This document shows, one piece after another, positions 28,557-58,881 of a stretch of DNA of 64,000 bases. The notes under the pieces were generated by a model, which had not been told where the DNA came from, did no database searches, and was given only the letters and a program-made list of their open reading frames with translations. Numbering within the stretch: position 1 is the stretch's first letter; each line of letters begins with the position of its first letter. The translations under genes were made by a program, and so were the position numbers. This DNA is from Diacronema lutheri (lineage: Eukaryota > Haptophyta > Pavlovophyceae > Pavlovales > Pavlovaceae), in NCBI GenBank assembly GCA_019448385.1, contig JAGTXO010000008.1:124001-188000 (forward strand). The letters run 5' to 3'.

Positions 28557-28589
<33 letters not shown>

Positions 28590-30693: not shown

Positions 30694-30803
30694 AGAAAGC
30701 GGCGGCGCCTCAGAGCATGGCGCCCGCCCGCTCGAGCCGGACCTCCGCGCAGCCGGACTCGCCCCGCCCCGGGCTGCTCTGGCTGGGCGACGTCGTGCGC
30801 GCC

Positions 30804-36856: not shown

Positions 36857-37080
36857 CTGGACGTCGAGCGTGTGCGCCTTGTCCGCACGTGTGCACTCAC
36901 GTGCGACTGCGGCGATCTGCCCGGCGTAGTAGTCCGCGCGCGCGGGAGCCGCGTCGGCAGTAGGAGCAGGATAACGTACTTGCGCCTGACGAGGACGGCG
37001 AGAAGTGCGGCTTTTCGCTCGGGGTCTACCATGCCGCCGAGGTTGGCGCTGGCGCGCGTGAGGCAGTCGGAGCGCGCTGG
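36850..37080 (-). mobile_element. possible LINE endonuclease N-terminal relic
   Basis: The minus strand reads RASANLGGMVDPERKAALLA followed by VLVRRKYVILLLLPTRL. This resembles the start of APE-type LINE endonucleases (N-V-R-G-L ... R-x-x-L-L-x-x-L ... D-V-x-L-L-Q-E-T-H). The catalytic Glu position reads Pro here, and nothing recognisable follows. No reverse transcriptase is visible, so at most a short decayed fragment. Confidence 0.35.
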
Positions 37081-39543
37081 GCCCGGGTTGAAGGCCTCAC
37101 CCCGGGGGACGGGAGGATTCAAGGCGCCGAGCCGCTGCGGGTGCGGCGGGAGGCCCCGGGCGGGTGTGCTAATGCGGCTCGATGGCCGCCTGCCGGGGGG
37201 GGGGGGGGGGGCGTTGGGCCGCCCGCGGAAACGGAGGTGAGCGTGTGGGAGCGGCGCGCGTCGGCGCGCGCGGCTGGCGTGCAGCACGGATAAGTCTTGT
37301 GTGGACTTCGCGGGGCGGATCCCGGTGCAGGGATTGCCGACGTAGGCCGCGAGCGCGAGCAGGGCGGGGATGAAGACGGATGATGGGGTTGGGGCCAAGG
37401 CCGCCGCACCCGCAGCTATCACGGTGGCAGCGACCGCCACGGTCAGTGCGAGGCTCGCGTGGCCGCTGCGCGGGCAGCTCGCCCGCCAGGTCCAGGAGGG
37501 CCGGCCTGCGGCCTCAGTGCCCAGCGTTGGGCATGTCAGCGTCTGCGTCTGCGGGCCCGCCACTGCGATGGCGCATTGAGCCTGGCGCACCAAAACGCAA
37601 TCGGTCCGCCGATCGGGGGGGGGGGGGGGGGGGGGGGGGGGCGAGGCGTGCGCGGGGGCTTGGGGTGGGCTCCGGGTGCCGGCGCTGTGCCAGCGGCGGG
37701 CTTGGTTGACGCCGTCTCGCCGGGGCCCTTGCGCCTTGCGGCGCGAGCGTCGCGGAGGGGCGTCGGCTGCGCTGGCTCCGCGTCGGCGGTGGCGTGGGGC
37801 AGGCTCTTGTGGAGGGCGGAGCGCTCGCGCACGAGTCGGTTGCCAAGGCGGGCTGTCTGCGTGCCGTTGGGCTGCGCTTGGGCAGGTAGGACCTGCGGCC
37901 TCGGGGGCGGGCGGGTTTTCGTGTTGGGCCAGGCGGCAACGCGCACCGGCCGTGTTCGCGGCCGGCAGGCGGACGTCCGCAGCGGGGCGGAGAATGCGGG
38001 TGAAGCGCTTGCACGGGCGCGGTTCGCACCTGGCGGCCAGGCGATCACGAACCGTTGGGTCGCCCGGCTGTTTGGTGGAGCCGAGGGCAGCAAGGATAGC
38101 GAGCTTGGCCGCCTCATCGGTGACGAGCGGCACTGTTGCCCAGCTCTGTACCTCGAAGCCCTGGATGTGCAGGCGTCGGGGAAGTTCCCGGCAGCGTCGC
38201 CTGCGTCCGTCGAGAGGCGGACCGAAGTCGCGCCCGTGCCCCCGTTGGCGACACCGAGCTCTCGCTCGTTCACACCGGCCCGCCGACGCGGGCGCGTGGT
38301 GCGCGCGCGTTGGGTGCGTGTCTGCCTCGAGCAGCGTGCCCAGTCGCAGTGTGGGCGCGTGTCCGTCTGCCTCAAAACGCCACGTGGAGGGGAAGGCGCG
38401 GGGCGGGCTCGCCGAGGAGGTGCCGCCGCTCGCTGCCACCCGGCGCGGGCTCGGGGCAGCCGTCTTCGGGTGCCGCGCTCTTCGCGCCATGCACGAACGT
38501 TCCGCCGCGCTCGCAGCGCGCGAGCGCACACACAGAGCGCGCGGCGACCCCGGCGGGGGCAGTGCGTCCCGGTGGCACTCGCGGGCGCGCGCCTGGCCTG
38601 GGCGCAGCTGGGCGCGTTGCCGCCCGCGCAGCGAGCCGCCCGCGCGCCTCGCCGCGCGCGCGCTTCGTCGCACGCGTGCGCCCTGCATGCACGCGCACAG
38701 CGCGCGGCGGCTCGGCGCAGTGCAAGGCAGAGCGTGCTGCAACGGTTGCGAGGGCGCGCACGCGCGGCGCGGCGCGCCCCTGTGTGGTCGCCTGCGCGCG
38801 GCGCGTGGTCCGGACGCAGCTCGGTGGCGTGATGCCGTTCGTGCAACACAGTGCGCGTGAGAGCCGCACGTGCACACCTGCAGTGCAACGCGGCATTGCG
38901 CGCGTTGCGTGGGCGGAGCGCGGCTGGATGTGCTTGAGGTCGCGCAGCATGCCGCGCGCCGCGCGCTGTGCGGCGCAGCGAGTCGGCCATGCCCCTGGTC
39001 CTCGTCTCCGGGGGGGGGGGGGGGTGGTGGTGGCAACCAGGATCCGCCAGCGCGTGGTGGGCGCCGTCCAACTCCCAGCCAGGATGCGCCCCGTTCTTCC
39101 CGGACACTCTCCGTCCAAACCCGCCGCCCAGCCTGCCGCCGCACCCGCCGCCAACGCCGCCGCGCACCCATCCGCCGAGCTCACCTCGCGCGCGCTCGCG
39201 CTCACGCTGCGCGACGAGGCTGCGCAGGCCGGCGCGCGGCCGTGCAGAGCAGCGCAGGCCGGCGCGCGGCCGCGCGCGCGCGCTCACGTTGCGGCCGCGC
39301 AGCGAGCTTTCGCCGCGTCGCAGCCCCTCCGAGCAGCCACGATGCACGCCCCCGGAGGACGTTGGCCGCGCTCGGAGGCCGCGCTCGGGCGCGCAAAGAG
39401 AGGCGGCGCGGGCAAACGAGTAGGCTCGGCGCGCTGGCGGGTCCTGGTTGTGGGAGAGCGGGGCATTCTCCAGGGCATCATGTAAATTCTCCCAAGTATC
39501 ATCCGGGCCGCCATCCGGACACTGACGTGCCCACAGTCTGCAG
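37081..39543. other. gene-poor GC-rich region with three G runs
   Basis: All six frames are open for long distances but are Arg/Ala/Pro low complexity with no domain motif I trust. It contains G runs at 37195-37211 (17), 37615-37641 (27) and 39010-39024 (15), which would be C runs on the minus strand. Short direct repeats of GCAGGCCGGCGCGCGGCCG lie near 39225-39273. It may be the remains of a minus-strand element. Confidence 0.45.
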
Positions 39544-42500
39544 ATGGAGGACTCCGTGAAGGACGCTTTGCCCGGCGGGCGGGGCGGCTCGGACAGTTTC
39601 TCGCTGGCCCTCAGCACCATTCTGTCGCCGGGAGATACCCACCCCCACGTGGTCCCATCCACTTGCCTCATCGCCCTGCTGCGTTACGCGGATTTCGGCA
39701 CGAGCAGGGTTAGGGTGGGCGACACGGGGTGCTCGCAGCATGCGCTCAAGGTGGCGCTGCGCAACCTGCGCAAAGCATGCGCGGATGCGGACCGGTTTGG
39801 GCAGGTGCTCGTGGTCGTGCTACCGCTCTGCCTCCGCGCGTCCAGCGGCCTCGTGCACTGGACGGCGGCGTACCTGCTCCTCGCGCCGCCCGCGCAGCGC
39901 GGCGCGCCGCCCGGCGCCGCGCTCGCCCTGCTCGCCGATTCGCGCACCTTGGGCAACGGCGAATCGGCGTACGCCACGGCGGCCGGCGTGCTCATCAAGA
40001 AGCTTGCGCAGCGCATCGGCAGAACAGCGCCGCCCATCGATGCCTTCAAGGCGCCCCCGCAGAGTGGGGCCGCGTGTTGCTTCGCCGCGGCAACAGTCGC
40101 GGCCGAGGTCGTGGCGAGCGCATCGACGCTCTACGGCCGCCGCGCGAGTGTCCTTGTCGACATCAAGAAGGCTTTGGACGCGCGCCTCGCGCGCCTCACG
40201 ACGGCCGCGTACGAGGAGACCCGCGCGCGCACGCTCCGCGCCGCCATCGGCGCTCTGCTCGGCGACCGCGCCAGGCGCTTCGGCCCGTTCACCCGCGAGG
40301 CCGCGCGGCTCGCCGAGGCCGCGCGGCTCGCCGAGGCGTGCGATGCCAGTGTCGGCGGATCCGCGCCCGACGGGCTGCTGCAGGCCGTCGAGGCGGCGCT
40401 GCGCGCGCCCGACGACCGCATCGCACGCACGGCCGCGCTCGACGCGCTCACGGGCGCTGCAGGCCGCGCGCTGTCGACGGCGGCCAGGCCGCGCGGCGCG
40501 GCGGCGCCAAGGCCGCCGTCGCGAGCGCCACCGCCGCGTGCGCCGCAGCGGCGCGCCGCCTCGGCGTGGGGGCCCCGACCATTCAGCAGCCTCGGCGGGG
40601 GCGAGGGCGACGGGGACGATGGCGACGCCACCACCGCTGACGACGGGGAGGGCGCGGAGGACGGGGACGACGACCCCGCGGGCGCGGCGGCTGCGGCGGT
40701 GGCGACGGGCACGGCGGCGACGAGCGCGGTGGCGGCGGGCGCGGCGCCAACCTCGCCGGCGGCGGCGGACGGCGGTGGCTCGGCGCCGCTCGAACGCCGC
40801 TGCGTCTACACTGCGCCTGATGAGGGCGACGCGGACGCGCGCGTGTACGACGCCAAGGACCCCGAGCAGCTAAAAGCGGGCAGGGCGCGGCTACGGGCGA
40901 ACAGCGGGCGCGCGCCCGCCGTGGTCGACACGCTTTTCGCGCACGCGACGGGCACGATCGTCACGCGGCAGCGCACGGAGGGCGTGACCGGCGCGGGCAT
41001 GCACCACCTCGCCGCCCCGACGCAGGGCGCGGGGTACGGTACCGTCGTGCGGGCCGAGCTGGGCGAGCCCGGCTTCGCGGGGACGACATGGCACATGACG
41101 TCGGGCGTGGAGAACCAGCCGCGCGCGGTACGAGCGGCCGCGCGCGCGTACGCGCACGACGGCTGGGGCGGCGTGTACAATGCGCACGAGGACTTTGCCG
41201 CCTTCGAGGGCTTGCCGCGGCTCGCCGCGCCCGAATCGCTCGCGGCCATCGCCGGCGGGTCGGCGGACGCGGTGTTCTGCTGGCGGTCCGGCCGGTCCGT
41301 CATCGGCGAGGTGACGACGGTTCACTTCAATGGCGACCGCGCCGCCGCCATCGACCACGCGCGGGCGCTGCGCGTCAGGCCCGATTGGCGCTCGCAGCCC
41401 AGGATCTACGAGGCGGCGTGCGGCGCGGAGGGCACGGTGCTGCTCGTGTGGGTCGTGCCCGACCGTCACAAGAACCCGCGGCTGGACTGGGCGCCGATTC
41501 TCGTCGTGATCCACCTGCCCGCCGACCCCGACTGGCTCGCGCGCGCCACGCCGGCGATCGCGAAGGCGCGGCGCGAGGTCGAGGACGGACGCGCGCGCGC
41601 GGAGGCGCGCGGCGTGCCGCAGCACCTCGCCTACACGCTGAGCCCACGCTTCCGAGGCACCGCGCCGCGCGGAGCCGCGCGCGTGCCGCCGCGCCTCGGC
41701 GCGAGCGACGCGCGCGAGGCGCGCGCGCTCGCGGCGCTCGAGCCGGCGCTCATGTTCGCGCCGGCCTGGCGGCGCGCGGTGCGCGCGGCGAGCCGCGCCC
41801 CCGGCAGTGGCGCCGCGGCCGTCGAGCGCGCGCTCGCGCGCCTGCACAACGCGCTCGAGCCCGATGACGAGAGCGCGCCCGAGTCGACGCGCGTCGCGCC
41901 GCTCGCCGCCGCGCTCGAGCAGTCGGCGGGCTGGCCGGCGGGCACGGCGCGCATGGCGGCAAGCGTGACCAAGGGCCCCGGCGTCGGAGATGGCGCAGGT
42001 GGCGACGAAGTGACCAAAGTGGAGGAAACGGCGAAGACGAGCGGCGACGGCTGCACCGGCACGCCTCCTCTGCGCCCGGCCGCGCGCGCGGCCGGCGCGG
42101 CGGACGACGGAGGGGCGGCGGTCGTGGCGGGCGTCGAGGGCGAGCGCGACGCACTCGCCAAGACGGGTGCCGGCGGCTGCGACGACGACGCTCGCGAGCC
42201 GCTGTCGGCCGGCAAGCCCGGCGCACTCGCCGCCGCGGCGACCGTCGGGGGTCTCGGCGAGCTCGTCGGCAGCCTATGCGCGTGGCTGGCGCGCGGCGCG
42301 GCTGGCGGCGCCATCGCGGCCATCTCCCCCGGGACGGCCGCGCGCGGAGCAAACGGCACGCCGCAGCGCGCCGAGCCGCCGGCCGCCGGCGATCCCGTCG
42401 CTCCGCACGCGCGCGTCGCCGCTGCGGCGCCCTTGGCGGGCAGCGCGGCGGCGCCGTCGTCGGCCGCGCGCGACGCGCAGCGCGGCGTCGCGGGATTCGA

Positions 42501-45500
42501 CGCGGCCGCGCACGCGCACGCGCGCGACGGCAGGCGGGCGGCACGGCGGATGCGCGAGCAGGAGGGGGCGGTGCACAGGGCCGTCCGCATGTCCCTCTGG
42601 CGCGACGCGACGTTTGTCGAGTTCGTTGAGAAGCTGCGCCCCGACGGCGGCGCGCAGCTGCTCGCGCGCGAGCCCACGCGGCGCGCGGCGGCGGTGCTGT
42701 GCGAGCTCGCGCGCGGCCGCGACGGCGCGAGCGGCGCGGCCGGGCTGCTGCACGAGATGAGAGCCGCCGATGCGCGCGCGCGCGAGGCCGCCAAAGCGGC
42801 GGAGGCAGCGCGGCCTGCGCACGGGACGCTGCGCATCGTGGCAACCGTGGCGCTGGGCGGTGCGGTCTTCGCCGGCATGTCAGCGCTGGTCGTTGCTTGC
42901 GCGGCGCGCACGGCGACCGGTGCGCTTTTTGGGGCCCGCCGCCCGCGGGCGGCCGCGCGCGGAGCCGACGACGCGCTCGGCACGCTGCAGCGCGCCAAGC
43001 CGCCGCCCGCCGACAAGGGCAAGCGCAGGCGCGCCAGAGCCAACGACGACCCCGTCGACGCGGCGCGCAAGGCCGTGGGCAAGGCGGAGGGCAACTGCCG
43101 CGAGGCAGCCCGCCGGCTGCACCTCGCTGCACTGGGCGAGGAGGAGGCGCAGCAGCGCGTGCTCGACGCCGAGGCGGCGGAGCAGCTGGCGCGCTCGCGC
43201 GAGCCGGCCGGCGGCTGGGTAGGCAGCGCGCGCGCGCGCGCGCGCGCGCGCCCCGCCGCGCGCGCGCCCGTCGATTGGCGTGCGCGCAGCGCAGAACGGC
43301 GCGCCAGCTCCGTCACCTGCGCGCCGCCGCGCCCGTGCCCCTCGCGCGCAGGGGCGCCCTGCGGACCTGCGGCTGCAACAGGCGCACTTTGGCATGCGCG
43401 AAGATGCCGACGCGGATGTGCGCCGCGCGCACGAGGCGCTGCGCCGGGCGAGAGAGGGTGTGGCGTGCGCCAAGGCCAGCGTGCGGCAGATGGAGGCGGC
43501 GTTGCTCAACGCGACGCGCTGCGCCACCGCGGTGCTCGCGCCGCGTGGCGTGCCGGAGGGTGACGAGCAGGCCGCGGCGAGAGAGCAGGCGGCGCTGGAC
43601 CGGGAGGCGCCGCCGGCCGCGCAACGCGCGGCGCCGACGGCGCGCTCGCCCTCGGAGCCGCCGTCCGAGTGGGGCCCGCCAGCGGTCGGCCGGCGCCCGA
43701 CGCCGCGTGCACTGTCGCACGCCGCGGGTCGCGGGGACGACAACCCGTTTGCGCCGCTCGCAACCGTCAGCGGCGATTGGTCGCCCACGCCGAGCTCGCG
43801 CTCGCCGTCCTCGCCGCCGCGGCAGCCGCCGTCCGACCGCCGCAGCGCGCAGCGTCGCAGCGCGCGCGCGCGGCCGCCGAGGCCGACCGTTTCGCCCGAG
43901 GACGCGCTCGCAGCCGAGCGCCAGGCGCGCGCGCTGTCGGAGCAGGCGGAGCAGAGGCGCGCCAAAAAGGCCGCCGCCAAGGCCGCGCGCCGCGCCGCGC
44001 GCGCCGCCGACAAGCGGACGGCGCGCGTCGTCCACGCGTGCGTAAGCGCCGCCTTGCGGCGCGTCTGCACGAGCGTCGCCACGGGCACGCCGCTCGCCGT
44101 GCTCCGCGAGCGCGCCGAGGGGCCGCGCGCGCCGAAGCCCGCGCCCGCGCCGCCACGCCGCGCAGCGGACGGCGGCCGCGCGCTCCGCCACGCGCGCCGT
44201 GCGGCCGCCGCGGCGGCGGAGCGCGAGGCGGCGGTGGCGGCCGACGCCGACGAGCGGTTCGAGCGGCAGCCCTCCGCCGCCCGGTTCGACGGCGGCGATG
44301 GCGGCGGAGGCGGCCACGTCGAGGCGAGCGCGCGACCGCGCGCCGGCGAGGCCGGCGAGGCTGGCGCGCACGGCGCGCCTGGCGCAGCGGGGACCCCGGC
44401 GGCGTCGCTCGCGTCGCGCAGCCCGTGTGATGCGCGCCGCACGGCACGCCTCCCGCACGCACGCGCCGCAGCCACCTGCGCACGCAACGGCGGCTGGGGT
44501 GGCAACGTCGGCGGCGACGTGTGCGGCGGTTGTTTCGGCGGCGGCGGCGTCCGTCGCGACGCCTGCGGCGGCGGCGACGCCACCTGCGGCTGCGGCGATG
44601 GCGGCGTCGGTGCTGGCGCTGGCGAGGCCCCTGCACACGGTGCGCCGGCGCGCGCGACGGCGTCGCGCTTGCTGCGCTTGCTCGGCGCGCCACGCGCCGT
44701 GCTCGGTGCGATGGCGCACGCCGCGGCCGTGTTGGCGCGCGGCGTGGCCGCAGCCGTCGCTGGCGTGCGCGCCGCCGCGCGCGCCGTGCGGCGCGCGCGC
44801 CGCCGAGCGCCTCGCGCGCGCCGCACGGCTGCGCGGCGGGCTCGCGGCCCGCCGATGCGCGACGTCGACGGCGCCCTGCGGCCCTCGCCGTCCTGGTTGC
44901 GCACACGCCTCGTCTGCGGCCGGCGCCTCGCGCCTCTGCGCCGCGCGGGCGCGCGCCCGCCGCCCGCACACGCCGCGCCGAGTTCCCGCGCGCGCGCTGC
45001 GCAACCCGACAGCGACGCGCCGGCGTGCGCGCCGCGGCGCTCGGCGCCTGTCGGTGCGCCGCCGCGCGCGCGTGGCCTGCGCGCGGCGCGCGCACGGCGC
45101 GTCCTCGACGTCGCCGGCCGCGCGGCGCGGAGCGCGCGCCTCGGCGCGCGCATCACGCGCCAGCGCACGCCGGGTTCGCCATCGGAGCCCTGCACGGCCG
45201 AGAGCGGCGACGGCGCGGGCGCCGGCGGCGTCGGCGCGGCGGCGCCTGGCGCGGCGACGATGCGCGCCACCGGCGCGCGCGCAGCGCGCGCTGCGGCGGC
45301 GGCGGTCGGTGGCGCCTCGCGTCTCGCGCGCCGCGCGATGGCAAGCGCCGCCGCCGCTGCCAACTCCATCGCCGGCGCTGCCGCCTCCACCGTCGCCGCC
45401 GCCGCCGTTGCCATCGGCGCGGCCGTCACGTCACCGGCGTTCGCCGCGGCGCGCGGCATGGCGGCCGCATGCGTCGCTGCCTGCGCCCGCCCCACCGCCG

Positions 45501-47799
45501 CGCAGGCGGCCGCGTCGCGCGCGCTCGGCGCGCTCTTCGTGCTCGTCGACGCGGCCGACGCGGCGGGCGACAGCGACGCCGCGCTCGGCGCGCTCGCGGC
45601 CGCGGTCGACGCGACGGAGCTGCGCCCGCCGCCGGCCTTTTGGCGCGCGGGCCGCGCCGCGGCGTACGCACCGCGTCCGCCGCCCCTCGACTCGGCGCGG
45701 CCGCGCTACAACCGGCGCGCGCGCGCACCTAGCCCTCCCGTCGCGGCCGCGCGGCGCAATCTCGCGCGCGCGGTGCGCGAGCTCACGCGCGCCGCGCGCG
45801 CTGAGCGCGAGCGCGCGCCGGCGCCGCGCGGCGCGCGCGGCGGCGTGCTCCACGCGCTGCGCGCGTCGCTCCCCGTGCACGCGCGCGCCGCGCTCGGCAC
45901 GGACGCGGAGCTGCGCGCGGACATCGCCGCGTTCGCGCGCGCGCGCCGCGAGCTGCACAGCCTCACCGACGCCGAGGTGGCGGCGCTCGCGCGCCCGGAC
46001 GGGCCGCCGCTGCCCGTGCGGCTCGCGTGCACGGCGGTCGCGCGCGCGCGCGGCGTGACCGTGCTGCTCGACATCGTGCCGCGCGGCGGCGGCGCGCCCG
46101 AGCGGCTCGTGTGCCGCGCCCGTCGCCGCGGCGCCGCCACGCGCACGCCACGGCCGACAGCCGCCGTTATCGCGCGCGCGCCTTGCATAGCGGCGCGCGT
46201 TGGCCACACTGAGCCGGCGCGCGCGTGCGCGGGCGGATCGATCGGGGTCGCGCGCCTCCGTTCAGCGCGCCGCCGCTCTTGGCGTGGGGCGCGGCTCGAC
46301 GTGCACACCCGCGAGCGGCTGGCCACACCGGTGCCAGGCCACGTCGTGGCCTGCGCCGCCGCCTCGGCCATCGGCGCGTGCGTCGCTCGCGCGCGGCTTG
46401 GGCTTGCACGGCTGGCGCGCGCGTGGCCCTGCGCCTCCGCTCCACTGGCCGCTGCTGCTGTCGCCTTCGCGCCTGCCGCCGACGGTGTTTTCTGCGCCCC
46501 GCTTGGCGCTCCTGCATCCGCCTTCGCGCCTGCCGCCGACGGTGTTTTCCCCGCCGCACTAGCCGCTGCTGCATCCGCCTTCGCGCCTGCCGCCGATTTT
46601 CCCGCCCCACTAGTTGCTCCTGCACTCGCCTCCGCGCCTGCCACCGACGGCGTTTTCCCCGCCCCACTAGCCGCTGCCGCTGCCGCGTCCGCGCCTGCCG
46701 CCGCGGGCGCGTCTTCCGCCCCACCAGCCATCGCCGCCGCGCCCGCCGCCAACGCGCGCACCGCCAACGTGCCCGTTGCCAACGAGGCTACCGCCACCGA
46801 ACCAGCCGCCCTTGAGCTTCCCCTCCAACCCGCCAACTCGGCGCTGCTTGCGTGGGCGGGCGACGCGGCTGCGCGCCGGCTGGCCGCCGCCGCCGCGAGC
46901 GCCGGCCTCCCGCAGGCAGAGGTGGAGCGCATCGCCAGCGGCGACATGCTCGCCTCAACCGTCGACGCGTGCTGCGAGGTCGTGCTGCGCGTGCACGGGC
47001 AGGCCGGCGGCGGGCATGTCTGCCACGTGCCGCTCGCCGCGCAACCCGCGGTGTTTCAGGACGACGCCGAGCGCGCCGCGCTGCTGCACCGCCTGCGCAG
47101 CGAGGCGACAACGCAGGCTGTCATCGGCGTGTGGAGCCCGTCGGACGAGCGCGGCGGCGCGGGCGGTGACGACGGCGCGCAGCTCGCCTCCGGCCATTTC
47201 ACCGCGTTGCGCCTTGTGCGCGTCGCGCGCGCGGGCGAGCATCGCTACGACGCGGTGCTCGTCGACACGCTCGCGTCGCCCTGCAGGCAGGCGCTCATGC
47301 TCGCCAAGGCGATAACTGCCACGCTGCACGCGGCGGGTCTCGACATTTCGCGCGTGCGCCGCGCGCTGCTGCTCAACGAGGCGGCGCAGCGTGGCGCGAC
47401 GTGCGGCCTCGCGATAGTGGGCGCGCTCAACGACGCGCTCGCCGCGGCGGGCTGCTCGTCCGCGCCGCGCACGTTCAGCGTGGCGGACATGTACGCTGTC
47501 GGCGAGCGCCTCCGCGTCGCGCTGACCGGCGCGGCCGGCGATCGTGCGCCGGGCGGCGTCTGCGCGGTCACGAGCGCGGTGCGCGGCGGGGGCAGCCCCG
47601 ATGGCGCCGAAACGCCGCCGCAGACGCGCGGCGCCAAGGCCGCCGCTGGCGTCACCGCCGCCGCCACCGCCGCCGCCACGCCGCCGCCGCCCGCGCTGGG
47701 CGCCGCCGCCGCCGCCACCGCCGCCGCCGCCGCTGCTGCCGCCGCCGTGGCCGCGCCGCCACCGCCGCCACCGCCGCCGCCGGCCGGCGACGCGGGCGA

Positions 47800-47872
<73 letters not shown>

Positions 47873-50800
47873 GCCGCGCGCACGTTCTTGAAGCTCGCGC
47901 CCAGGGCGCGCGCGGCCGCCTCGGCGCGTGAGGCGTTGCGCGCCGCGTGTGCGCGCGCGGACGCGGCGGCGTCGTCACACGCGTCGGCGCCGCACGCGCC
48001 CGCCGGTGCGCGCCGCCGGCGGCGCGCGGGCGCAGGCGAGCTGGCGCTCGCGGCTGCGCGCGCGCTCGCCTCGACGGAGCACGGCGATTTGACGGACGAC
48101 GCGCTCGAGGCCGCCGTCGAGCAGGAGCTGGGCGACGAGCGCGGCCAACTGCTGCTGTGCACGCGGGGCGCAGCGGCGCAAAGGCCCGCGCTTTGCCGGC
48201 TCCTGAAGCACGCGTGCGCGTCGGCGCGCGCGGCGAAGCGCGCGCAATTCACGGTGTTCGTCGTGCGCGCGGCCACGCGCGGCGAGCGGGGGGGCGCCGC
48301 CGCGAGGCGCGTGGACTCGGTGGTCGAGCTGTCGTGCGCGCTGCACGAAAAGGCGGGCGCGCTCGGCGGCCTCCAGCGCGTCTGTGTGCGTGGCTTCGCC
48401 CTCGAGCGCCGCCGGACACTCGACGGTGGCGCCGAGGCCGGCGCGTCCGCCATCGGCCAGGACGAGCAGGTCGAGGCAGAGGCGGGCGAGGCGTGCGTCG
48501 CCGGCGTGACGATGGCCAAGCAGCTGCGTCAGTTTGCCGAGCAAGCTGCCCGCGACGACGTGCTCTTCCGCGTCGCCGTGTCCGAGGCCGACGCCCACGC
48601 CCGGCTGGCGCGCGTTGCGGGTGACGATGTCGGCGCGTACAGCGTCGTGCTCGCAGTCGCCGGGCTCGTCTGGCTGGCCAAGGCCGACGAGGTTGCGCCG
48701 GCGGCCGCCCGGTCCGCCGCCGCGCCGCCCGCCGCCCCGCCTGCTGCCGCCACGTCCGCCGACGCCGAGCGCGACGCCTCGCCTTCCGACCGCCTGCGCG
48801 CGCTGACGCTCGCCGTGCGAGTCGCGCTCGCGCGCGGCGTGCTGCGCCACCTCCTCGCCGACGCGTCGCCGGGCGCGTCCGCGACCGCTGGCGGTAGTTG
48901 CGCGACGCCCGTCGAGGCGGCCACGTCCGCCGCCGCGCCGCCCGCCACGGGCGTCGTGACGAGTGGCGTCGCGGCGGGCGCTGTGGCGGCCGCACCGGCT
49001 GCTGCGGGCGGTGCGACGGCGGGTGCATCGCCCATCACGCGGCCGGCGAAGCGCGCGCGGCGCACGCTCACCGCCGCTCCAGCCGCCTCGGCCGTTGCGG
49101 CCGCTGGAGGCGCACGCGCGGGCGCACGCGGCGCGGCCGGCGCGCCTCGCGCGCGCGCCGCGCGCGCGCCGGCCGAGTACGTCTGGCTTGCCATCGCGCG
49201 CCGGATGCTGGCGGCGCGACACGCGGCGGCCGCGGGCGGCGACTTTGTCGCGTCGTGCGTCGCCGCGATGCAGGCCGAGTACGGCGACGGCTGTGCCGTC
49301 GTCGTCGGCGACGCGCCTGATGACGCCTTGGTCGAGGCTGCGGCGGCGGCGCTGCTCGAGGGCAAGCACGCGGCGGTGAGCCTCGGCTGCGTCGACCGGC
49401 CGGCGGTGCTCGTCGTGCAGCGCGCCGTGGACGCGCCCACGTCGCGCGTGCACGGGTGGTGCGCGCACGCGGCGGGCGCCGCCGAGTTTGACGAGGGCGC
49501 CGCGCACGGCGTGTTCAACGCGATCGTCGAGCGCGCGTGGGCGCTGCGTCCGGACCCGGCTGACGGCAGCCCGCCGCCCACGCGCACGTGGGAGGTCGAG
49601 CAAATCGCTGGCGACGCGCCCGACCAGGCGGGCGTGGCCGCGCTGCGCGTGCTCTACGCGCTCGTCGCGGCGCACGGCCGCTACCGCTCGGCCGCCGCGC
49701 TCTTTGGCGCGCTCGCGCAGCTGCACGCGCCCGACGCCGCCGGCGCGCGCGCGGAGGTCGTCGCGGCGGCGTGCGCGGTGCCGCACGGCGCGCGGCCGGG
49801 CGCCGCGCCGGCGGCCGCGCGGGACGACGCGAGGGAGCGCGCATGGGAGGGCGCTCAGATCGCCGCGCTCGCCGTCGGCGCGGACGCTGCGCGCAGGCGT
49901 GTCGCGCCCGTGCGCGCGCTCGTCGACGCGCTCGGCACGCCACCGACCTCGGCGATCACGGGCGGGCCGGCGGTCCGGCTCGCGGGCGCGGGCGACGGCG
50001 GCCACGGTGCACGGTGGGTGGGCGGGCAGGCGGCGACGCCCGCCGAGCAGCTGCCGAGGGAGCTGCTGCGCGCCTACCACGAGGCGGTGCTGTGCGTCAC
50101 GCCCGGCAGCCTCCAGCTCGGCCCGGCGGCGCTCGACGCGGTCACGCGGCCGCGCGAAAACGACACGCTGGAAGGCCTCCTCGCGCGCGTCAGCTGGCAG
50201 TGCGGCGCGAGGGCGAGCACGTGCGCCATGCTCGCCACGTTTTCCGAGCAGGCGGGCACCGGCTCGCGCGTCGCGCTCAAGGCCCTCCGCACGAGCTCCG
50301 ACCTGGCCGGGCTGACGGCGGCTGCGGTCGGGCAGCAGGCGCCACAGACGCCGCCGCCGCCGCTGCTCGTGATGCTCGGCCGCTGCCCCAGCCCGCTCGT
50401 CGGCGGCGGCCTCTTCCCGCCCGACCGCGCGACGGGCGAGCCGGCGGTGCACGCGGCGACGTCCGAGCTCGCCGTCGAGCTGCTGCGCGACGCGCGCGCG
50501 CTGGCCGGCACGGACGGGCGGCTCGTCGTGCTGTGCCTCGAGGCGTCCAACCCGCTCTGGTTCTGCCCCAAGGTGCGCGAGCTCGAGCTGCCGCGGACGC
50601 GGTCGGACGGCGTGCGCGCGTCCGGCTGCACCTGCCCTGCGACGTGCGGCGATGCGCGCGGCGCGGCGGGTGGCGCTGCCCGCGGCGCATCGACGCGGCC
50701 GGCGGCGCGCGCGATCAACAAGGCGGTGCTCGACCACTTCGTCGCGCTTTTCGGCCGCGAGGGCTTCGCGACCTTTGAGTTTGCGGGCGGCGGCGAGGCG

Positions 50801-53800
50801 AGCTGGCTGTGCGACAGCGCGGCCGGCACGACGACCGTCGCGGCGTGCGCGTCGCTGCCGCCGCGCATGGGCGATGGGCAGCTGGCCATCCGGCGGCACA
50901 CGCTCGGCACGGGCGCCGACGCGCCGGCGCACGCCGTCGTCTCGCTCCGCGTCGCGCACGTGAGCCACGCCATCCGCCGCGCGGCGGACGACGGCGGCGC
51001 GCGCGCCGAGCGGATGGCGCGCGCCGCGCGCGCGTTTTGCGATGTGGCGGCCGCGCTGCGCGTCGACGCGATCCTGGCGGAGGTGCCCGAGGACCGCCCG
51101 ACGGGCACGCCCTTCCTTGGCGGGCTGCTCGAGTTTTGGAACAAACGCCACGGGAGCTCGACGGCGCCAGCCACGCTCGCGCTCGGAGACGTGCGCGAGG
51201 TGGCCAAGCGGACGGCCGACGCAGCGGCCGGCCGAGCGGACGAGGTCCCTGCGGCTGGCCGTCCGCAGGTCGCGGCGCGCGCGTGCGCTGGCGCGATTGG
51301 CGGCGGCGCGGGCGCGGCGGGCGCCTCGGACGCTGCGCCGCGTGCACTGGCGGGCGCGTCGGGTGCGCGCACGGACGGCGGCCCTGCCGACGCACCGCGC
51401 CAGCTGGAGAGCCGCTACGGCGAGGCGAGCAAGCTCGACCTGCCCCAAGATTCCACTACGGGCTGCGTCCTCGACGCTCGCGAGGCCCAGGACCGCGCGC
51501 GCGTGCCTGCTGCGCCCGACGGCACAGCGCTGCGCCGCGTGCTCGACGCCGTCGGCGCGGGCGCGCCCGCGCAGCGCAGCCCGCGCTGGCACGACGAGCG
51601 ATGGGAGGAGGTCACGGGCAGCAAGGTTGGCGACGTCGTGAACGACAACGCCGGCGTCGCGCACGAGACGCTCACCGACGAGTACGTGCACCGGCGGCGG
51701 CGCGAGGTGCGGACCAAGGCGACGACCGCGGGCATCCTCGGCGAGGCCGTCGCGCTGCGCAAGCTGGCGGCCGCGTACGGCATCACCGTCGTGTGCAACC
51801 TGCCGATGGTGCGTGCGGACCCGCACGACAAGAGCGCGCCGTTCGCCTTCTCGCCGGACGGGCTCGCCATCCTCCCCGAAGACAACGAGCAGGTCCTCGT
51901 CGAGGTGAAGACGCTCACCAAGGCGGACGCCAAGGCGCACGAGGACGGGCCGCCGCAGCCGTACCGCGATCAGCTGCAGCTCGGCATGCACGTCCTCGGC
52001 GTGCGCAAAGCGCTCTACGTGCAGTACCTCAGGCACGAGGACCGGATCGTCGTGCACGTCGTGACGCGCGGCGCCGGCTGGCTTGCATTCGCGCAGCCGA
52101 GGGTGCAGGCCTTCTGGGCGCGCGTCGTCGAGCGGCGCGCGCGGCTCGAGCGCGCGCGCGCCGACCACCCGGCTGCGAGCCGGCGGCACCGGCGGCAGCA
52201 GACGCCGGCCGGGCCGCCGCTCGTGCTCGCGCTGGACGGGCGCATCCCCGCCGCGCGCGCCGCCGCGCTGCACGCCGTCGCGCACGGCACCGCGAGCGCG
52301 GCGGCGGTGGCGGCGACGGCGGCGACGGGCGACGCGACGGCGTTGCAAGACGCGATCGCGGCGCTGCGCGCGCCCGTCGGCAATGCGGCGATCGACAGCG
52401 CAGCGCGTGCGGAGGGCGCGGCCGTCGAGCGGGCGATCGCGTACCTCGGGCAGCCGGCAGGCGACGCCGCCGCCCGCGGCACGGCCGAGGCGGCCGAGGA
52501 GGAGAGGACGGTCGACGCCGACATCTGCGCGTTGCTGCACCAGCTCGGCGCGAGCGTGGCGCACGTGCACGTCGAGGACGCGGATTGCGTCACGCGTGAG
52601 CACTGGGGCGGGGCGGTGCTCGCTGCAGCGGGCGACCCGTCGAGCGCCCCCGCCATTTCGAGCGTCATCGTCGCGCACATCGTGCGGCTCGCCGGCTTTG
52701 GCGTCGAGCTCCCGCAGTCGATTCGCGTCGCCCCCAGCACGGCCGACTGGCACGAGGGCTGGCTCGACGTGCAGTGCGTGCTGCTGCGCACGCGCCGGCG
52801 CGGGCGGCGCGACGACGACTTTGTGGCCGTCGTCAGGCGCGGTGGGCGCTGGTTTGCGTGCGAGCCCGGCCGCGCGCGGCGGCTGCAGTGGCGGTCGGTC
52901 CTGCGCCGCGCGCGCGGCGGCGTCGACGGGACCGGCGAGGAGGCGTTCGCGGTCGTCTACGTGCGGCGCGGCGACGCGGCCGGCGACGCGGCTGGCGACG
53001 CGCAGGCCGAACGGGCGCGCGGCGGGCGCGCGCGCAGGCGCACGCGCGGCGGCACGCGCAAGCGCAAGCGCGGCGCCTCCGCCGGGCTCGAGGCGGCCGC
53101 GCCCGCCGGCGCGCCGGCGGGCGCTGCTCACCGCCCGCCCGCCAGGCGTGCCACGGTCGCCGCGCGCACCACGCGCTCTGTGACCGACGCGCGGCACTCG
53201 GCGCCTGCCGCCACGGTTGCACCTGTCTTCGACTGGCGCGCCGGCCGCCCGCCCCCTGCCGCCGCCGCCGCCGCCAAGCGCGGCCAGGCGCTCGAGCCGG
53301 GGCAGTTCGCGCGGCCGCGTGGGCGCGCGCCATGGGGCAAGGTCTGGGACAGAGTCTCGGGTGCGTGGGCGGACAAGCCGACTGGTGCTGCCGTCGCCGC
53401 CGCGCCGCCGCCGCTGCCGCCCGCCGCCGCGCCGCCGCCCGCCGCCGCGCCGCCGCCCACCGCCGCGCCGCCGCCCGCCGCCGCGCCGCCGCCCGCCGTC
53501 GCGCCGCCGCCCGCCGCCGCGCCGCCGCCGCCGCCGCCACCGGCGGCGCTCGGCCGCCGGCAGCACGTCGGCGCGGGCGGCAGCGCGGCGGGCCGGCGGC
53601 TCGCGGCCATCGCACGGCGGCAGCGCGGCGTGCGCGCGCCGCCGCCCGCCGCGCGCTTCCTCGCCACGCTGCCGCCACCGCCACGCGACGGCCTCGCGCG
53701 CACGAGCAAGCAGGCGCGCGCGAGGCGCAACGCGGACGGACGGCCGGCGCACGCGCGCGCGGCCAACGCGCGCGCCTTCTACCGCGGCGTGGAGCTCGGC

Positions 53801-56800
53801 GTGCACGCGACGCGCGCCATCGTCGACGCGCGCCACGCCGACCTGCCGCAGGCCGTCTTCGTGGCGGAGGCGCGGGCGATCGTCGCGCGCTCCGCCGGCG
53901 GCGGCGCGCTGCTCGCGCCGGACGACGTGCGCGACCTGTGCGACGCGCAGACGGACGCCGATCGCGCTGCGATCTGGGCGTCGGTGGGCGCGCACGAGGC
54001 GACGCGCATCTTCGCGCTCGTCACGCGCAACGCGAGCTTGGCGGGCGCGGCGCTGCTCGTGCTGCACACGCCGGCGGGCGCGCCGGCGCGCGCGCTCGGG
54101 CTCGTGGCGACGCGCTCGCGCGCGCCGTCGACGGGCGCGCCGCGCGACGCGCACAGGGCGCTGGTGCAGCGGTTGGACGTGCTGATGGACGCGATCGCCG
54201 CGGCGCGAGGCGCGTCGCCGCTCGAGCTCGAGCTTGCGCTCGCGCCCGAGCCGCAGAGCGCGTGCAACGCGCGTGCGGCCGCGCTGCTCTGCCTGCAGGC
54301 CGTCGCGGACGCGAGCGGCCGTCCCGCCGCTGAGGACGCGCTGGCCGCGCTCGACGACGCGCGCGGCATCGACCGGCACTGCCACGCCGTCCGGCAGCAG
54401 ATCGAGGCGAAGCTCGCGTGGCGGCGCGCCGACGGCGCCGTCGGCGTTGACGGCGCCGACGGCGCGCCCGCGCTCGCGCCTGCCGCCGCACCGCCGGCGT
54501 GCGCGCCGGCGCACGCTGCCGGCGAGGCGGCGGTCGACCAGGCGATCGTCACGCGGGTGCGCGACGCGCTGCGCGCGTGGGCGACGACTGGCACCGCGCC
54601 CAGCGCGGCGGTGCTCGACGACGCCTGCGCCGCGTACACGGCCCGCGCACGCGCGCGCAAGGACGCGCGCACGGCGCTGGGCCCGACGCGCGCGGCCGAG
54701 CTGCTCGCCGCGGCCGCGCGCGGCGGAGCCGACGGGGCGGATGCCGCGCGCGCGCTGCTCGGCGGCACGCCGCGCCTGCTCGTCGTGCTCCTCTGCGTGC
54801 CCGTCGCCGCGCCGTCCGGCGAGCCGCCGCGCCCGGTCGGGCTGCTCGTCGCCGACCGGCCGACGGACGACTCGCGCCCGGCCGCGCTCGTGCGCTACGA
54901 CTTTGCGCCGCTCGACGCGGACGTGGCCGTCGCGGTCGGCGCGCATGCCGTCGCGCTGGCCAGTGCGATCTGGCCGCTGCTCGCGGCCGAGGGGGAGCCG
55001 CGGCCATCGCCCGTCGTGCGCTCGCAGCCGCGCGGCGGCGACGATGGCGCGCGTGCGCTCGCAACGTTCGCGTGCCTCGACGCGCTGATGACCGCCAGCG
55101 TCGGCGCGCACGGCCTCGCGGGCGGCGCGGGCATGCTGCCCGCGCTGGTCGCGCGAGGCGCCGCGGCCGCCCAGCGCGAGCGGCAGCTGCGCGCGGCCGC
55201 CGAGAGGCTGGGCGGCACGGTCGCTGGGTGGCCGGACACGGGCGCGAGCGCGGCGGGCGCGAGCGTCGACGAGGAGGCGCGCACGTACGAGGTCGAGGCG
55301 GTCGTCGACGAGCGCCGCAAGGCGGGCAAGAAGGTGACGTTCCAGTTCCGGATCAGGTGGCGGGGCTACGACGAGAGCGCCGACACGTGGGAGCCTGAGG
55401 CCAACGTGAGCAGCGACCTCGTCGCCCAGTTCCGCAAGACGCGCGACGAGCAGAAGCGGCGCGCGGGCGTATCGGGCAGCGGCAGCGGCGGCGCGGGCGC
55501 GGCGTCGGCATTGGCGTCGGCGCCGCTTCGCGCGCACGGCGAGTCGGGCGCCGCGGGCAAGCGCGCCGCGGCGGGTGCCGCCGCGAGCGCGCGCGACGCC
55601 GCGGGCGCGCGCGCGCCGAGCGTTCCCCGCGCGCGCGGCGTCGAGCGCGCGCGCGTGGACGAGCCCGCTGCGCCGAGCGCGCGCGCCGCCGGCGGCGCGA
55701 CGGCGCGCACGCGCGGCAGCGTGCTCCCGGGCTTCGTGGTCAAGCGCTCGACGCTCAACGCGGGGCCGCAGGCGGTGACGGCGCAGCCCGGTGCGCGGAA
55801 GGAGCTGCGGCGCATCGCGGCGGCCGTGCACAGGCTCACGACACAGGCGTACCGCGTCATCAACAAGGTGGTGCGCGACGAGGCTGCGGTGGCGAGCGCG
55901 CAGGCCGTCGGCGCGGCGTCGGGCGGCCCGTCGACCAGCGTGCACACGTCGACCACGATGGACAAGGGAACCGTCCGTGCGATCTTCTCGGCCATCGGCT
56001 GGCACAAGGACGAGAGCACGTACGGTGCAGCGCCCCGAGGCAAGCCCGCCGAGCAAGCCGCCGCGCAGACCAAGGCGGCGACGGCGCGCGCCGTCGGCGA
56101 GATGGCCGAGGGCGTCCAGCCCGTCTGCGCGGTGGGCCTCACGGAGATCCTCGAGGCGGAGGCGACGCAGGTGTCCACCGCGTGCCTGATGCATCCATCG
56201 CGCGTCGTGAACGGGCTGCTCCGCGACGTCGTCCGCGCGGCAGTCGAGCGCGACGAGGCGCTCGTCGCGCTGCCCGAGATGCAGCGAAACGCGCGCGTGC
56301 GCGAGCTGTGCGAGCGGCTGCTGCGCGGCGACGTGGAGGGCGCGCGCGTCGGCTGCCCCGCCGCGCTCGACCGCCACCTGCCCGACATGGTCCTCCACAA
56401 GATCGACTACAAGTGCACGCCCACGAAAAGGTGGAACTACGACCGGCACACGACGCGCTACTTCCTCGTGCAGATCCGCACCCTGCAGCACGTGGCCGAG
56501 GGGCAGGCGCTGCTCTGCCGGCTCGCGCACATCCACACGCAGCTGACCGGACGGCCGCCGCGGTACAATGTGGCGCCGCTGCGCACGCACAATGTGCGCG
56601 CGAGGCGTGGCTGCCGCTGCCGCCGCCGAGGGCCCAAGCGCGCGCGCGCCGCCGCCGTGCGCGCCGCCCCGCGGCCAGGTTGGTCACGCGCCCGCGCGCT
56701 CGCGCGCCGCGCGCTGCGCGCAGGTGCCGCGCAACGTGCGCCTCGCCGCGAGCGCCATCTGGGTGACGCTTTCGGATGACGAGCGCAAGGAGCTGCGCGC

Positions 56801-58448
56801 GCGGCTCAAGGCGCTGGACCTGCGCGACCACGATGGCGAGCCGATCAAGTGGACAGGCACAAACGGCAACACCCCGCCGATGTCGGACGTGCGCGTCAGG
56901 TACGCGGTCTTTGCGACGCGCTTCGACATCTCCAACCGCGTCTTCGACTACGCCGGGCGCGAGCGGCCGCCGGCCGATCTGCCGTGGCACGCGCGGCGCT
57001 CGTGGGTTGGCCTCGCGCCGCTGCCGCGCGTGCCGCTCCCGGGCCGGCAGCCCGTCAAGTCGGTGGTGACAGATGGCGTCGCCGTGCACGCCGTCGGGAC
57101 CGTCCTCGTGCCGAAGGCGCAGGCGCCGGCCGGCGGCTCGGGCGTCCTGCACCGCTGGCGCCGGCCGGACGGGCGCATCGCCGTCGCGCTCGGCTCCGAG
57201 CTGCGGCGGGCGATCGACGTCGAGGCGGCGGTCGTCGTCGCGGCCGACCCGAACATGGGCAACATCACCACCTACTCTGCGCACGTCGGGCGGGCGGCCG
57301 TCTGGCGGCAGTTCACGCAGCGCGCGCGCGCGCGCGCCGCGGGCTTTGCGCGCGAGACGGCCAAGACCAACGCGGCGCGGCGGCGCGTGCGCAAGGACGG
57401 GCGCGGCGAGGAGTTCAGCGTGGAGGCGGACGAGGCGCGGCTTGGCGAGGCGCACAGCGCCAAGGTGCTCGGCGAGGGCGAGTTCCACGCCTTCCACCGC
57501 GAGAGCGCGCGGGTGCGCGAGCGCGCCGCCGAGCACGTGTACGACGCGCCGGCGCGCCGGAAGGAGCGCTGGCGGCGCGACAGCGGCGGGCGGTCCAACG
57601 CGGCGCGCGTCGCCGAGGCGCTCATCGCGGCGCACTGTGTCGACGGCGTGACGCGCGACCGGCTGCTCGTGTGCGTGGGCAAGTGGCTGCGCGACCACAA
57701 GGGCGCGCAGCCCAAGGGCGCGCCGCCCGCCTTCCAGGTGGGGCTGCTGCGCGAGCTGCGGCGGCGCGGCGTCGCGGCCGTCTTCGTGCCCGAGCCGTAC
57801 ACGTCGATGCACTGCTCGATGCCGCGGCTCGCCAAGGGCGGCAGGCTGCAGCGCTGCGGCGCGGAGCTCGCGCAGAACCCGCGCCTGCCCGTGGCAAAGG
57901 GCGGCACGCGCACGGTGCACGCGCTCGTCATCTGCCCGGCGTGCAACGGCGGCAAGAAGCCCGTGCACCGCGACTACAACGCCGCGCGCAACATCTTCTA
58001 CGACGTGCACGACATGGCGGCGCACGCGGCCGGGCGCGACACCACGTCGACGCCTGAGCGCTTTGCCCTCGTGCTCGCCTGGTGGGCGCGCGGCGAGGTG
58101 TGGGAGCGTGAGGAGCGCATGGTGCACGGCGAGGGCGACGACTGCGACGACGAGTGCGACGGCGACGACGAGGGCGACGACGAGGGCGACGACGACGACG
58201 ACGACGATGGCAGCGGCGACGGCGGCGGCGGCGAGGGCGACGGCGACGGCGACGGCGACGGAGGCGGCGGCGGCGACGACGACGATGACGGCGGGGGAGG
58301 CGGCGGCGGCGACGGCGGTGGCGACGACGGCGGCGGGCGCGGCGGCGGTGGCGGCGGCGGCTCTCGCGCCCGCACCCCCGCCCGCGGAGCTGCCAGCGCC
58401 AGTGCCGGCGGCGGCAGCGCGCGCGGGCCGAAGCGCGGCCGGCGTTGA
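39544..58448 (+). CDS. giant multidomain protein: Ulp1-like proteases, YqaJ exonuclease, chromodomain, Fanzor nuclease
   Basis: Predicted exons 39544-43218, 43352-56593 and 56724-58448 join in phase 0 across 133- and 130-bp GT-AG introns, giving about 6,213 residues. Order: Ulp1-like protease (80-200), nuclease-like unknown (420-665), TM helix (about 1096-1122), coiled coil (1150-1320), low-complexity Arg/Ala region (to 2340), second Ulp1-like protease (2380-2640), poly-Ala (2652-2734), unknown alpha/beta domains (2780-3840), YqaJ exonuclease (3955-4160), more unknown domains, an Ala-Pro repeat (about 4575-4625), chromodomain (5204-5260), Fanzor (5350-6090) and an acidic Gly-rich tail. The exon 1/exon 2 join continues one coiled coil. 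It may instead be several genes; no internal stops or clear gene ends were found. Mobile-element origin is likely, with no capsid or envelope gene seen. Confidence 0.6.
39780..40145 (+). other. Ulp1-like (C48) cysteine protease module A
   Basis: Residues 80-200 of the giant protein show the C48 order His-Asp-Gln-Cys: His105 in GLVHWTAAYLLL, Asp132 in ALLADSRT, Gln173 and Cys178 in APPQSGAACCF. Hydrophobic strands precede the His and Asp as in Ulp1/adenain folds. All four positions are filled. Confidence 0.6.
46455..46720 (+). repeat. coding minisatellite, about 60-bp unit
   Basis: Inside the giant gene. Imperfect copies of a unit around CGCGCCTGCCGCCGACGGTG encode repeats of the type SAFAPAADGVFPAPLAAA, roughly four to five copies with drift. 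Confidence 0.75.
46815..47600 (+). other. Ulp1-like (C48) cysteine protease module B
   Basis: Residues about 2380-2640. His2507 lies in ASGHFTALRLVRV, Asp2530 in YDAVLVDTLASP, and Gln2571 and Cys2576 in NEAAQRGATCGLAIVGAL. The Gln-Cys spacing of five equals that of module A, and the H-to-D distance is similar. A related but possibly inactive copy may lie near 49170-49770, where DAPDQAGVAALRVL has the Gln without the Cys. Confidence 0.6.
47640..47875 (+). repeat. GCC trinucleotide expansion (poly-Ala)
   Basis: Near-pure GCC/CCG repeats encode poly-Ala with Pro inserts in the giant protein. They separate module B from the next domain and are likely length-variable. Confidence 0.85.
51540..52160 (+). 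other. YqaJ/lambda-exonuclease-type nuclease domain
   Basis: Residues about 3955-4160 of the giant protein. AQRSPRWHDERWEEVTGSKV is the YqaJ N-terminal signature (R-S-x-x-W ... R ... T-G-S). GILGEAVALRKLAA provides the conserved Glu helix. The catalytic triad is Asp4061 in FAFSPDGLAI and Glu4076/Lys4078 in VLVEVKTLTK, then DQLQLGMHVLGVRKALY. All catalytic residues are present. This family resects DNA ends in phage and element recombination. Confidence 0.85.
53395..53550 (+). repeat. 18-bp coding repeat (Ala-Pro)
   Basis: Repeats of GCCGCCGCGCCGCCGCCC encode about seven to eight AAAPPP units, a flexible linker between domains of the giant protein. Confidence 0.85.
55280..55450 (+). other. chromodomain
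   Basis: Residues about 5204-5260: TYEVEAVVDERRKAGKKVTF followed by QFRIRWRGYDESADTWEPEA and NVSSDLVAQF. This is the canonical Y-x-V-E ... I-R-W-x-G-Y ... D-T-W-E-P-E-x-N-V pattern, with the aromatic cage positions Tyr, Trp and Tyr/Trp kept. By family it would read methylated histone lysine. Confidence 0.9.
55720..58448 (+). other. Fanzor (eukaryotic TnpB-like) RuvC nuclease module
   Basis: Residues about 5350-6213 across the last intron. RuvC-like catalytic residues: Asp5814 in VVVAADPNMGNITTYS, Glu5996 in AAVFVPEPYTSMHCS, Asp6056 in KPVHRDYNAARNIFYD. A four-Cys zinc ribbon lies between the last two (MHCS, QRCG, CPAC), as in TnpB. The upstream part has KCTPTKRWNYDRHTTRYFLV and a conserved WVTLSDDERKELRARLKALD helix. 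By family, Fanzors are RNA-guided DNA nucleases whose guide RNA comes from the element's end, so the DNA just past 58448 is of interest. The tail after the RuvC domain is Asp/Gly rich and ends GPKRGRR, nuclear-localisation-like. Confidence 0.85.
58140..58370 (+). repeat. GAC/GGC repeat encoding an acidic, Gly-rich tail
   Basis: Consecutive GACGACGAGGGC-type units give a Asp/Gly/Glu tail after the Fanzor RuvC domain. The composition is unlike the rest of the protein and suggests slippage expansion. Confidence 0.8.
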
Positions 58449-58881
58449 CGCACGGCCGAGCCGCGCAGCGGTCGACGCTTTGCGGGCTCTGCCCAGGTCG
58501 CGCGCGGCTGGCGACGCGTGCCGCGCGCGGCACGACCGTGCACGCCGCCACCCGTGGCCGAGCGCGCCGCACCAGCCGGCCCGCTCCAACCGCCGTGCGG
58601 ATCACGGACGCTCGCTACGGCTCGTCGGCGCGCGTCACCTGCGCCGGCGGCCACGGCGCCGTCTGCTCCGGCCTCGTCGCGAGCAGCCCGACCGCTGCTC
58701 GCCGCCCGCACGCCGCCGCAGCAACGCTGCGCGTCGTGCTCCCCCGCTCGCCAAACGCGAAGAGCTCCCTCACAAGGACGTCCTTCCGAACGGCCCGCGC
58801 TGCACTCGGGGCGCGATCGTGCCCCTGATCGGATTTGGCTTGACCATCTATACGCAGCGGCATAGTAGTACGTAGTGTGCC
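58449..58881. other. right flank of the giant gene
   Basis: GC-rich at first, then falling toward normal after about 58780. No coding signal I trust. This is where a Fanzor guide RNA and an element end would be expected; no obvious terminal inverted repeat was found by eye. Confidence 0.4.

Follow-up and report, generated by a model that had tools for sequence, protein, structure and literature searches.

Within the window, a 64,000-nucleotide stretch of the Diacronema lutheri genome (contig JAGTXO010000008.1, positions 124,001 to 188,000), a giant predicted gene occupies the right 19 kb of a transposon with sharp boundaries. The positions of all features are compiled in Table 1.

Table 1. 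Features of the giant gene and of the transposon that carries it, in window coordinates.
Feature	Position	Strand	Basis and remarks
Whole transposon, 31,016 bp	27838..58853		Copy comparison
Left terminus	27838..27845	+	[C/G]TATATA[C/G], then GGCGCGGTCC in most sampled copies
Open reading frame near left end	29009..29557	-	Codon-position GC signal
Imperfect palindrome, about 0.87 kb, 104-bp units	29837..30704		Inverted matches at 91-92%
PIF1 helicase gene, Helitron-type	31279..33700	+	Pfam; end and splice sites approximate
Ubiquitin-specific-protease-like gene part (UCH)	35427..36110	+	Pfam UCH 33.5 bits, cut-off 23.9; limits approximate
Exon 1, giant gene	39544..43218	+	Open frame, splice sites, codon model
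Possible cysteine-protease motif (His box, Asp, Gln, Cys), exon 1	39853..40080	+	By eye
Possible degenerate PD-(D/E)XK/YqaJ-like domain, exon 1	41044..41450	+	By eye
Intron 1, GT-AG, phase 0	43219..43381	+	Codon signal lost, then regained; acceptor before 43382 chosen, 43352 also possible
Exon 2, giant gene, 4,404 codons	43382..56593	+	Open frame, frame-GC plot, codon model
Possible clan-CE (Ulp1-like) cysteine protease domain	46844..47530	+	His-Asp-Gln-Cys order by eye
YqaJ exonuclease domain	51587..52000	+	Pfam 26.9 bits, isolated segment
Chromodomain	55286..55438	+	Pfam E 5.7e-12
Fanzor N-terminal part in exon 2	55700..56593	+	By position, start approximate; codon signal up to donor site
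Intron 2, GT-AG, phase 0	56594..56723	+	Codon signal; 2-bp deletion inside in some copies
Exon 3, Fanzor RuvC and TNB part, acidic/glycine tail	56724..58448	+	Pfam PF07282; relatives P0002-P0004 at 39-45% identity
Right terminus	58831..58853	+	GGATTTGGCTTGACCATCTATAC, GC-rich hairpin upstream

Structure of the Giant Gene

Three open frames (39526-43563, 43223-56779 and 56547-58448) follow each other on the plus strand, each in a different frame. Splicing of the segments 39544-43218, 43382-56593 and 56724-58448 gives a stop-free predicted product of 6,203 residues. The exon limits were examined with a codon model whose training set came from core stretches within the gene's own exons; it therefore tests the location of a signal change and not its existence. 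According to this model the frame-1 signal, which begins at about 39.55 kb, is lost near 43218, though frame 1 is open to 43563, and the frame-2 signal begins near 43380. A switch from frame 2 to frame 0 between 56594 and 56724 and a frame-0 signal from 56.72 to about 58.1 kb are seen in the codon model as well as in the frame-GC plot. Both introns can be read as phase 0, with GT at 43219 and 56594 and AG ending at 43381 and 56723; for intron 1 alternative phase-0 acceptors are present, e.g. at 43352. With a local GC content near 80%, random stop-free runs are estimated to average roughly 110 codons, so that the 4,404-codon frame of exon 2 is not due to chance. Linkers of weak signal in the frame-GC plot (44.3-45.5, 46.1-46.7, 47.6-47.9, 48.8-49.1 and 53.0-53.6 kb) remain within one open frame. 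A preliminary description had proposed a single three-exon gene for about 6,200 residues with two phase-0 GT-AG introns. Codon signal, intron sites and frame support this predicted gene model well, and the changes in signal fall on the two proposed introns.

A 30-mer at the exon-1 start has 173 copies in the genome at up to two mismatches (control 0), and the portion of exon 1 that was examined is open in 30/30 copies. Searches with the middle of the chain (960 residues) and with the chromodomain-Fanzor join revealed no relative at E 0.001 among proteins of about 2,500-7,900 residues.

Domains of the Predicted Chain

The chromodomain reaches 45.8 bits in Pfam against a curated cut-off of 25.1, and the positions that we take, from HP1, to form its Tyr/Trp/Tyr cage look conserved. 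The YqaJ domain gave 20.7 bits (E 5.4e-4) within the whole of exon 2, under the Pfam cut-off of 22, and passed it with 26.9 bits (E 6.6e-6) when the segment was scanned alone; a sequence search of the PDB gave no match to it. For exon 3, the Fanzor TNB domain (Cas12f1-like, PF07282) was found with 28.3 bits, the cut-off being 26.3. The published Fanzor motif (PMC3627910), in our own rendering, is present in exon 3 and in 0/2000 shuffles of its residues 1-470: RuvC Asp, TS..zinc finger and RD follow in the published order and spacing, with D175 among the fitting Asp residues. Exon 3 matched four proteins, all on contigs shorter than 3 kb. P0001 is 99% identical and may come from the same species as the window, and P0002-P0004 are 39-45% identical. 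The finger part recurs in P0001 and P0002, not in P0003, where the finger is incomplete, nor in P0004, which ends earlier. The N-terminal Fanzor part in exon 2 gave no Pfam match of its own. A structural model of the Fanzor is of low confidence (mean pLDDT 43.5), and its top four fold matches in the PDB are Cas12f structures with E 0.075 or worse.

That YqaJ exonuclease, chromodomain and C-terminal Fanzor are joined in a single predicted polyprotein is well supported, and these three domains of the preliminary description stand. The two Ulp1-like proteases that it also named are candidates. Their motifs, like further degenerate protease-like copies in the chain, were recognized by eye. No protease family matched any of ten chain segments in Pfam at E up to 10, and the domain at 46844-47530 had no relevant sequence match in the PDB and gave a model (pLDDT 39.3) without significant fold match. 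The degenerate PD-(D/E)XK/YqaJ-like region of exon 1 likewise had no match in Pfam.

Limits, Copy Number and Other Genes of the Transposon

The limits of the element were confirmed by comparison of its copies. All 38/38 scored long matches to the left part begin at 27831-27840, and identity to the window stops after 58853 in 8/8 loci (L001-L008). In most copies sampled the left end reads [C/G]TATATA[C/G]GGCGCGG and the right end CCATCTATAC. Motifs were counted in the assembly (43,492,796 bases in 103 contigs, one of 3,042,068) with 2 or 3 mismatches allowed. At up to two mismatches the 28-mer adjoining the left terminus has 230 copies and the right terminus 219; the YqaJ motif was counted 218 times, the Fanzor RuvC-III motif 235 times and the helicase Walker A motif 203 times, with all controls at 0. 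Pairing of ends among the matches listed (98 right, 100 left) gave 64 pairs, of which 26 measure 30.9-31.2 kb and 13 measure 21.3-21.7 kb; the remaining 25 have other sizes, 16 of them 26.0-29.5 kb, and 36 left ends are without partner among these matches. If the paired copies are typical, their mean size of 27.7 kb and 219 copies correspond to 13.9% of the assembly. A genome search with exon 3 gave at least 76 scored copies at 99-100% identity, 75/76 of them stop-free. Since the compared copies are mostly 99-100% identical, the spread is recent.

Besides the giant gene, the element carries a helicase gene with Pfam matches to PIF1 (E 3.7e-14 and 1.8e-24) and Pif1_2B (E 6.2e-13). The best PDB match of the helicase is Helraiser with E 8.7e-7; in a second search Helraiser reached 1.2e-19 in comparison to 1.1e-3 for PIF1 entries. 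Its N-terminal part matches no family and by eye resembles single-stranded-DNA-binding domains. The UCH-like gene is perhaps decaying in the window copy; its N/S ratios against a 21.5-kb form of the element are 0.86 (136 codons) and 2.27 (49 codons). No Pfam match was obtained for the minus-strand frame at 29009-29557. Another minus-strand frame with coding signal, at 30804-31388, lies head to head with the helicase gene, and its product appears by eye to be a small single-pass membrane protein; the frame near 30.8-31.2 kb had no family match. The palindrome at 29837-30704 also occurs in other copies of the element.

Pfam scans of all six frames of 27838-39545 and of the three exon frames revealed no Rep, DDE transposase, tyrosine or serine recombinase, polymerase or capsid, and thus no serine recombinase partner of the IS607/Fanzor2 type; a search for Rep by the HxH pattern gave no convincing site. 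The only Helitron_like_N match in the genome (L140, G000:C63:35738-36019) is open over 326 residues, and by eye the reading around it seems to shift frame. Compared with the window, this locus gave no blastn match and short scattered matches in tblastx.

Ends and Flanks

Target-site duplication was assessed in 37 usable copies (of 41). In 36/37 at most 5 flank bases match, much like in shuffled pairs; since full-length copies exceed the subread N50 of 23.5 kb given for the genome data (PMC8379373), flank pairing could be wrong in some, and ten shorter copies (16.0 to 22.2 kb) gave the same result as full-length ones. One of the 37 copies has 12 matching bases, a direct repeat on both sides (L069/L070, G000:C9:2907808-2938842). 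No target-site duplication recurs consistently among the insertions. Duplications of variable length (7-19 bp) were reported for Fanzor1 Helitron2 elements of Chlamydomonas (PMC3627910). In 23/37 copies the left end is preceded by A or T, the A+T content of the window being 27%. Another repeat, with TTAGTATATAATACTAA in its palindromic end, harbours some of the copies at that end. This recipient repeat lies at 26439-26733 of the window and at L006, and the giant element has inserted there repeatedly.

Several contigs (C1, C3, C8, C12, C14, C32 and C33 as examples) end at or within 1 base of the right end of the element, and these assembly breaks were probably caused by the element. A telomeric element was considered and rejected, because in other contigs, which start inside the element, the right end is internal, a pattern consistent with breaks of the assembly in a near-identical stretch.

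With STATATAS and CATCTATAC the termini show neither 5'-TC nor CTRR-3'. An asymmetric inverted repeat is at chance level (62-65/500 shuffles for 10-14 bases, 263/500 for 16). The fold of the left end has a z-score of -1.93, with 8/200 shuffles as good. At the right end (58654-58853) a hairpin lies about 30 nt from the end, with z -1.29 and 23/200 shuffles as good. A search of the right end for a guide RNA gave no Rfam match and a hairpin energy not beyond chance.

Variation among Copies

One 21.5-kb copy was examined in part (C14; L116-L117, G000:C14:231740-244600). Its left 2.4 kb are 99% identical to the window, it lacks the 5' part of the helicase gene, and the UCH-like protease gene is 87% identical. 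It has a different N-terminal module, 666 codons from its own ATG, in frame with the part shared from 46.73 kb on. The protease-like domain at 46844-47530 exhibits 85% amino-acid identity to the 21.5-kb form over 229 codons with an N/S ratio of 0.47, and from 47.9 kb on the two differ at 1 site in 700 codons. One C-terminal chain with two N-termini supports a single frame from the protease-like domain on and shows that modules are exchanged.

Over the stretch compared, 132 substitutions separate a 26.3-kb copy from the window, among them 93 non-synonymous and 36 synonymous changes. With N/S ratios of 1.73, 0.99 and 1.22 for exons 1-3 it gives no sign of purifying selection. It also has one insertion, which is 6 bp long and in frame, and lacks 2 bp within intron 2.

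From the exon-1 start to the YqaJ motif the length difference to the window is a multiple of three in 35/45 paired copies. Among those that differ from the window the proportion is 23/33 (chance 2e-5 if copies are independent), and with each distinct non-zero value counted once it is 13/22 (chance 0.012); tandem repeats with three-base units could add to this excess. The net change is not a multiple of three in 10/45 copies. In 9 of these it lies outside intron 1, so that some copies are frameshifted or mis-assembled; the assumption that all odd-length changes fall in intron 1 was wrong (1/10). From YqaJ to RuvC-III, 42/53 length differences equal minus two plus multiples of three, 8 are multiples of three and 3 are neither. 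Intron 2 was examined in five copies, four of them readable. The 2-bp deletion is present in 2/4, one of which keeps an odd change elsewhere, and the fifth copy has an internal inversion. In L176 (G000:C9:427150-427380), a full-length copy, an inverted internal segment brings 52.5-52.7 kb beside exon 3.

Discussion

On balance we lean towards a giant Helitron-like DNA transposon, young and 31 kb long, with the giant gene as its main gene, a Fanzor at the end of the polyprotein, and a spread that probably proceeds by cutting, resection and copying. The observed part of this reading consists of the sharp ends, about 200 copies, no consistent duplication, the Helitron-type helicase and the Fanzor-ended chain. 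The chain would be made as one polyprotein and perhaps be divided by the protease-like domains that it contains. The chromodomain may tether the complex to marked chromatin, and host ubiquitin marks could be stripped by the product of the ubiquitin-protease-like gene. The Fanzor would be directed by a guide RNA that, like that of TnpB, starts in the element's right end and extends into the flank, and would cut empty or sister sites. After resection of the break by YqaJ, the element would be copied in, by helicase-driven single-strand or repair synthesis. A candidate for the strand-cutting transposase that starts a move is an unrecognized domain of the polyprotein. A transposition without conventional transposase, in which Fanzor break, YqaJ resection, chromodomain tether and break-induced copying of 31 kb by the element's own helicase suffice, appears improbable to us. 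According to Saito 2023, single-strand transposons could be promoted when Fanzor cuts at the sister chromosome (PMC10432273); as the element carries a resection and a helicase function, it would be a good place to test this idea.

The strongest competitor, which we nevertheless judge rather unlikely, is that the element is a passenger, mobilized in trans by a transposase whose gene lies elsewhere, with the polyprotein serving only in homing, repair or host control. In accordance with it, no transposase was recognized in the frames scanned, and shorter forms have spread as well (13/64 pairs of 21.3-21.7 kb among the matches listed), the one examined lacking the 5' part of the helicase. The 31-kb class is, however, the largest among these matches (26/64), and the only Helitron_like_N locus of the genome, on C63, shares no blastn match with the window.

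A different doubt concerns the gene itself. The 19 kb could hold two or more genes, exon 1 reading on to the stop at 43563 and a second gene running from a frame-2 ATG between 43394 and 45458 to the Fanzor. Seven such ATGs are found there, the codon signal is weak at 44.3-45.5 and 46.1-46.7 kb, and the other N-terminal module of the 21.5-kb relative indicates that the N-terminal 2,400 residues are exchangeable. We consider this division unlikely, given that frame 1 has no codon signal after about 43218 and exon 2 is one open frame over 13.2 kb. Furthermore, no frame-2 ATG occurs from 45458 to 46946, the latter being inside the protease-like domain, and the open frame of the relative leads without a break from the ATG of its N-terminal module to the shared part.

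An integrated virus or virus-derived element is very improbable. Fanzor is known in large DNA viruses (PMC3627910), and a giant-virus paper mentions both YqaJ and Ulp1 (PMC3620924). Against such an origin, the frames scanned contain no capsid, polymerase or packaging family, with a single insignificant phage match (E 0.32), and IMG/VR scans with the Fanzor and with the helicase N-terminus gave no relative; in its sharp ends, its many copies and its shorter forms the element resembles a transposon. A host defence gene family can practically be dismissed in view of the copy number, unique flanks and precise ends, even though nuclease and protease domains generally occur in defence proteins.

The self-contained mobile or defence system of the preliminary description is retained in one respect: with about 200 copies and precise ends the element is mobile. 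Nothing found points to defence, and the protein is not self-contained, being one gene of a 31-kb transposon that also has a PIF1 helicase and a ubiquitin-protease-like gene.

The published genome of D. lutheri NIVA-4/92 comprises 43,502,671 bp in 103 contigs with 73.25% GC, and repeats account for 22.9% of it (PMC8379373). Among annotated repeats, LTR and LINE are ranked first there, and the main text contains no word beginning with "transpos" (PMC8379373); the element family was thus probably not recognized. Should the prediction of one polyprotein be correct, we would know of no earlier case of an RNA-guided nuclease sharing one chain with an exonuclease and a chromatin reader; the element that encodes it has recently come to occupy roughly a seventh of a small genome. 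It would offer an apparently young natural system for testing what Fanzors do for their transposons.

Comparison with Known Systems

IS200/605 and IS607 elements with TnpB resemble the element in having an RNA-guided nuclease at the right end; the element is far larger and has no recognized TnpA or serine recombinase. KDZ, EnSpm and Sola-1 transposons make target duplications, and none is consistent in the element. These giant algal DNA transposons are similar to it in that more than 30 kb and accessory genes are possible, and differ in having DDE transposases, none of which was recognized here (PMC12477816).

With Helitron, Helitron2 and Helentron the element shares a PIF1 helicase, here closest to Helraiser, and the absence of a target duplication. 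Helentrons are known to carry accessory cysteine proteases, and Helitrons of up to 39 kb occur in maize (PMC6431247). In contrast to these groups, no Rep was found, the ends have neither 5'-TC nor CTRR-3', the helicase has a separate gene and a giant second gene is present. A canonical Helitron was rejected on account of the missing Rep in the frames scanned and the missing Helitron ends. In the portion covered of the open-access literature on Fanzor-Helitron, Fanzor-Ulp1, Fanzor-haptophyte, Fanzor-chromodomain, giant-transposon and YqaJ-Ulp1 combinations, no such element is described.

To our knowledge, the known eukaryotic Fanzor1 are proteins of several hundred residues. One example has 633 residues, and Fanzor1 in Helitron2 elements of a green alga was already reported (PMC3627910). 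The same D...TS..finger..RD motif, the right-end gene and the DNA-transposon host are shared with Fanzor1 as described (Bao and Jurka 2013, PMC3627910; Saito 2023, PMC10432273). In comparison to these proteins, the Fanzor reported here forms the C-terminal end of a predicted chain of about 6,200 residues, in which it follows a chromodomain and a YqaJ exonuclease.
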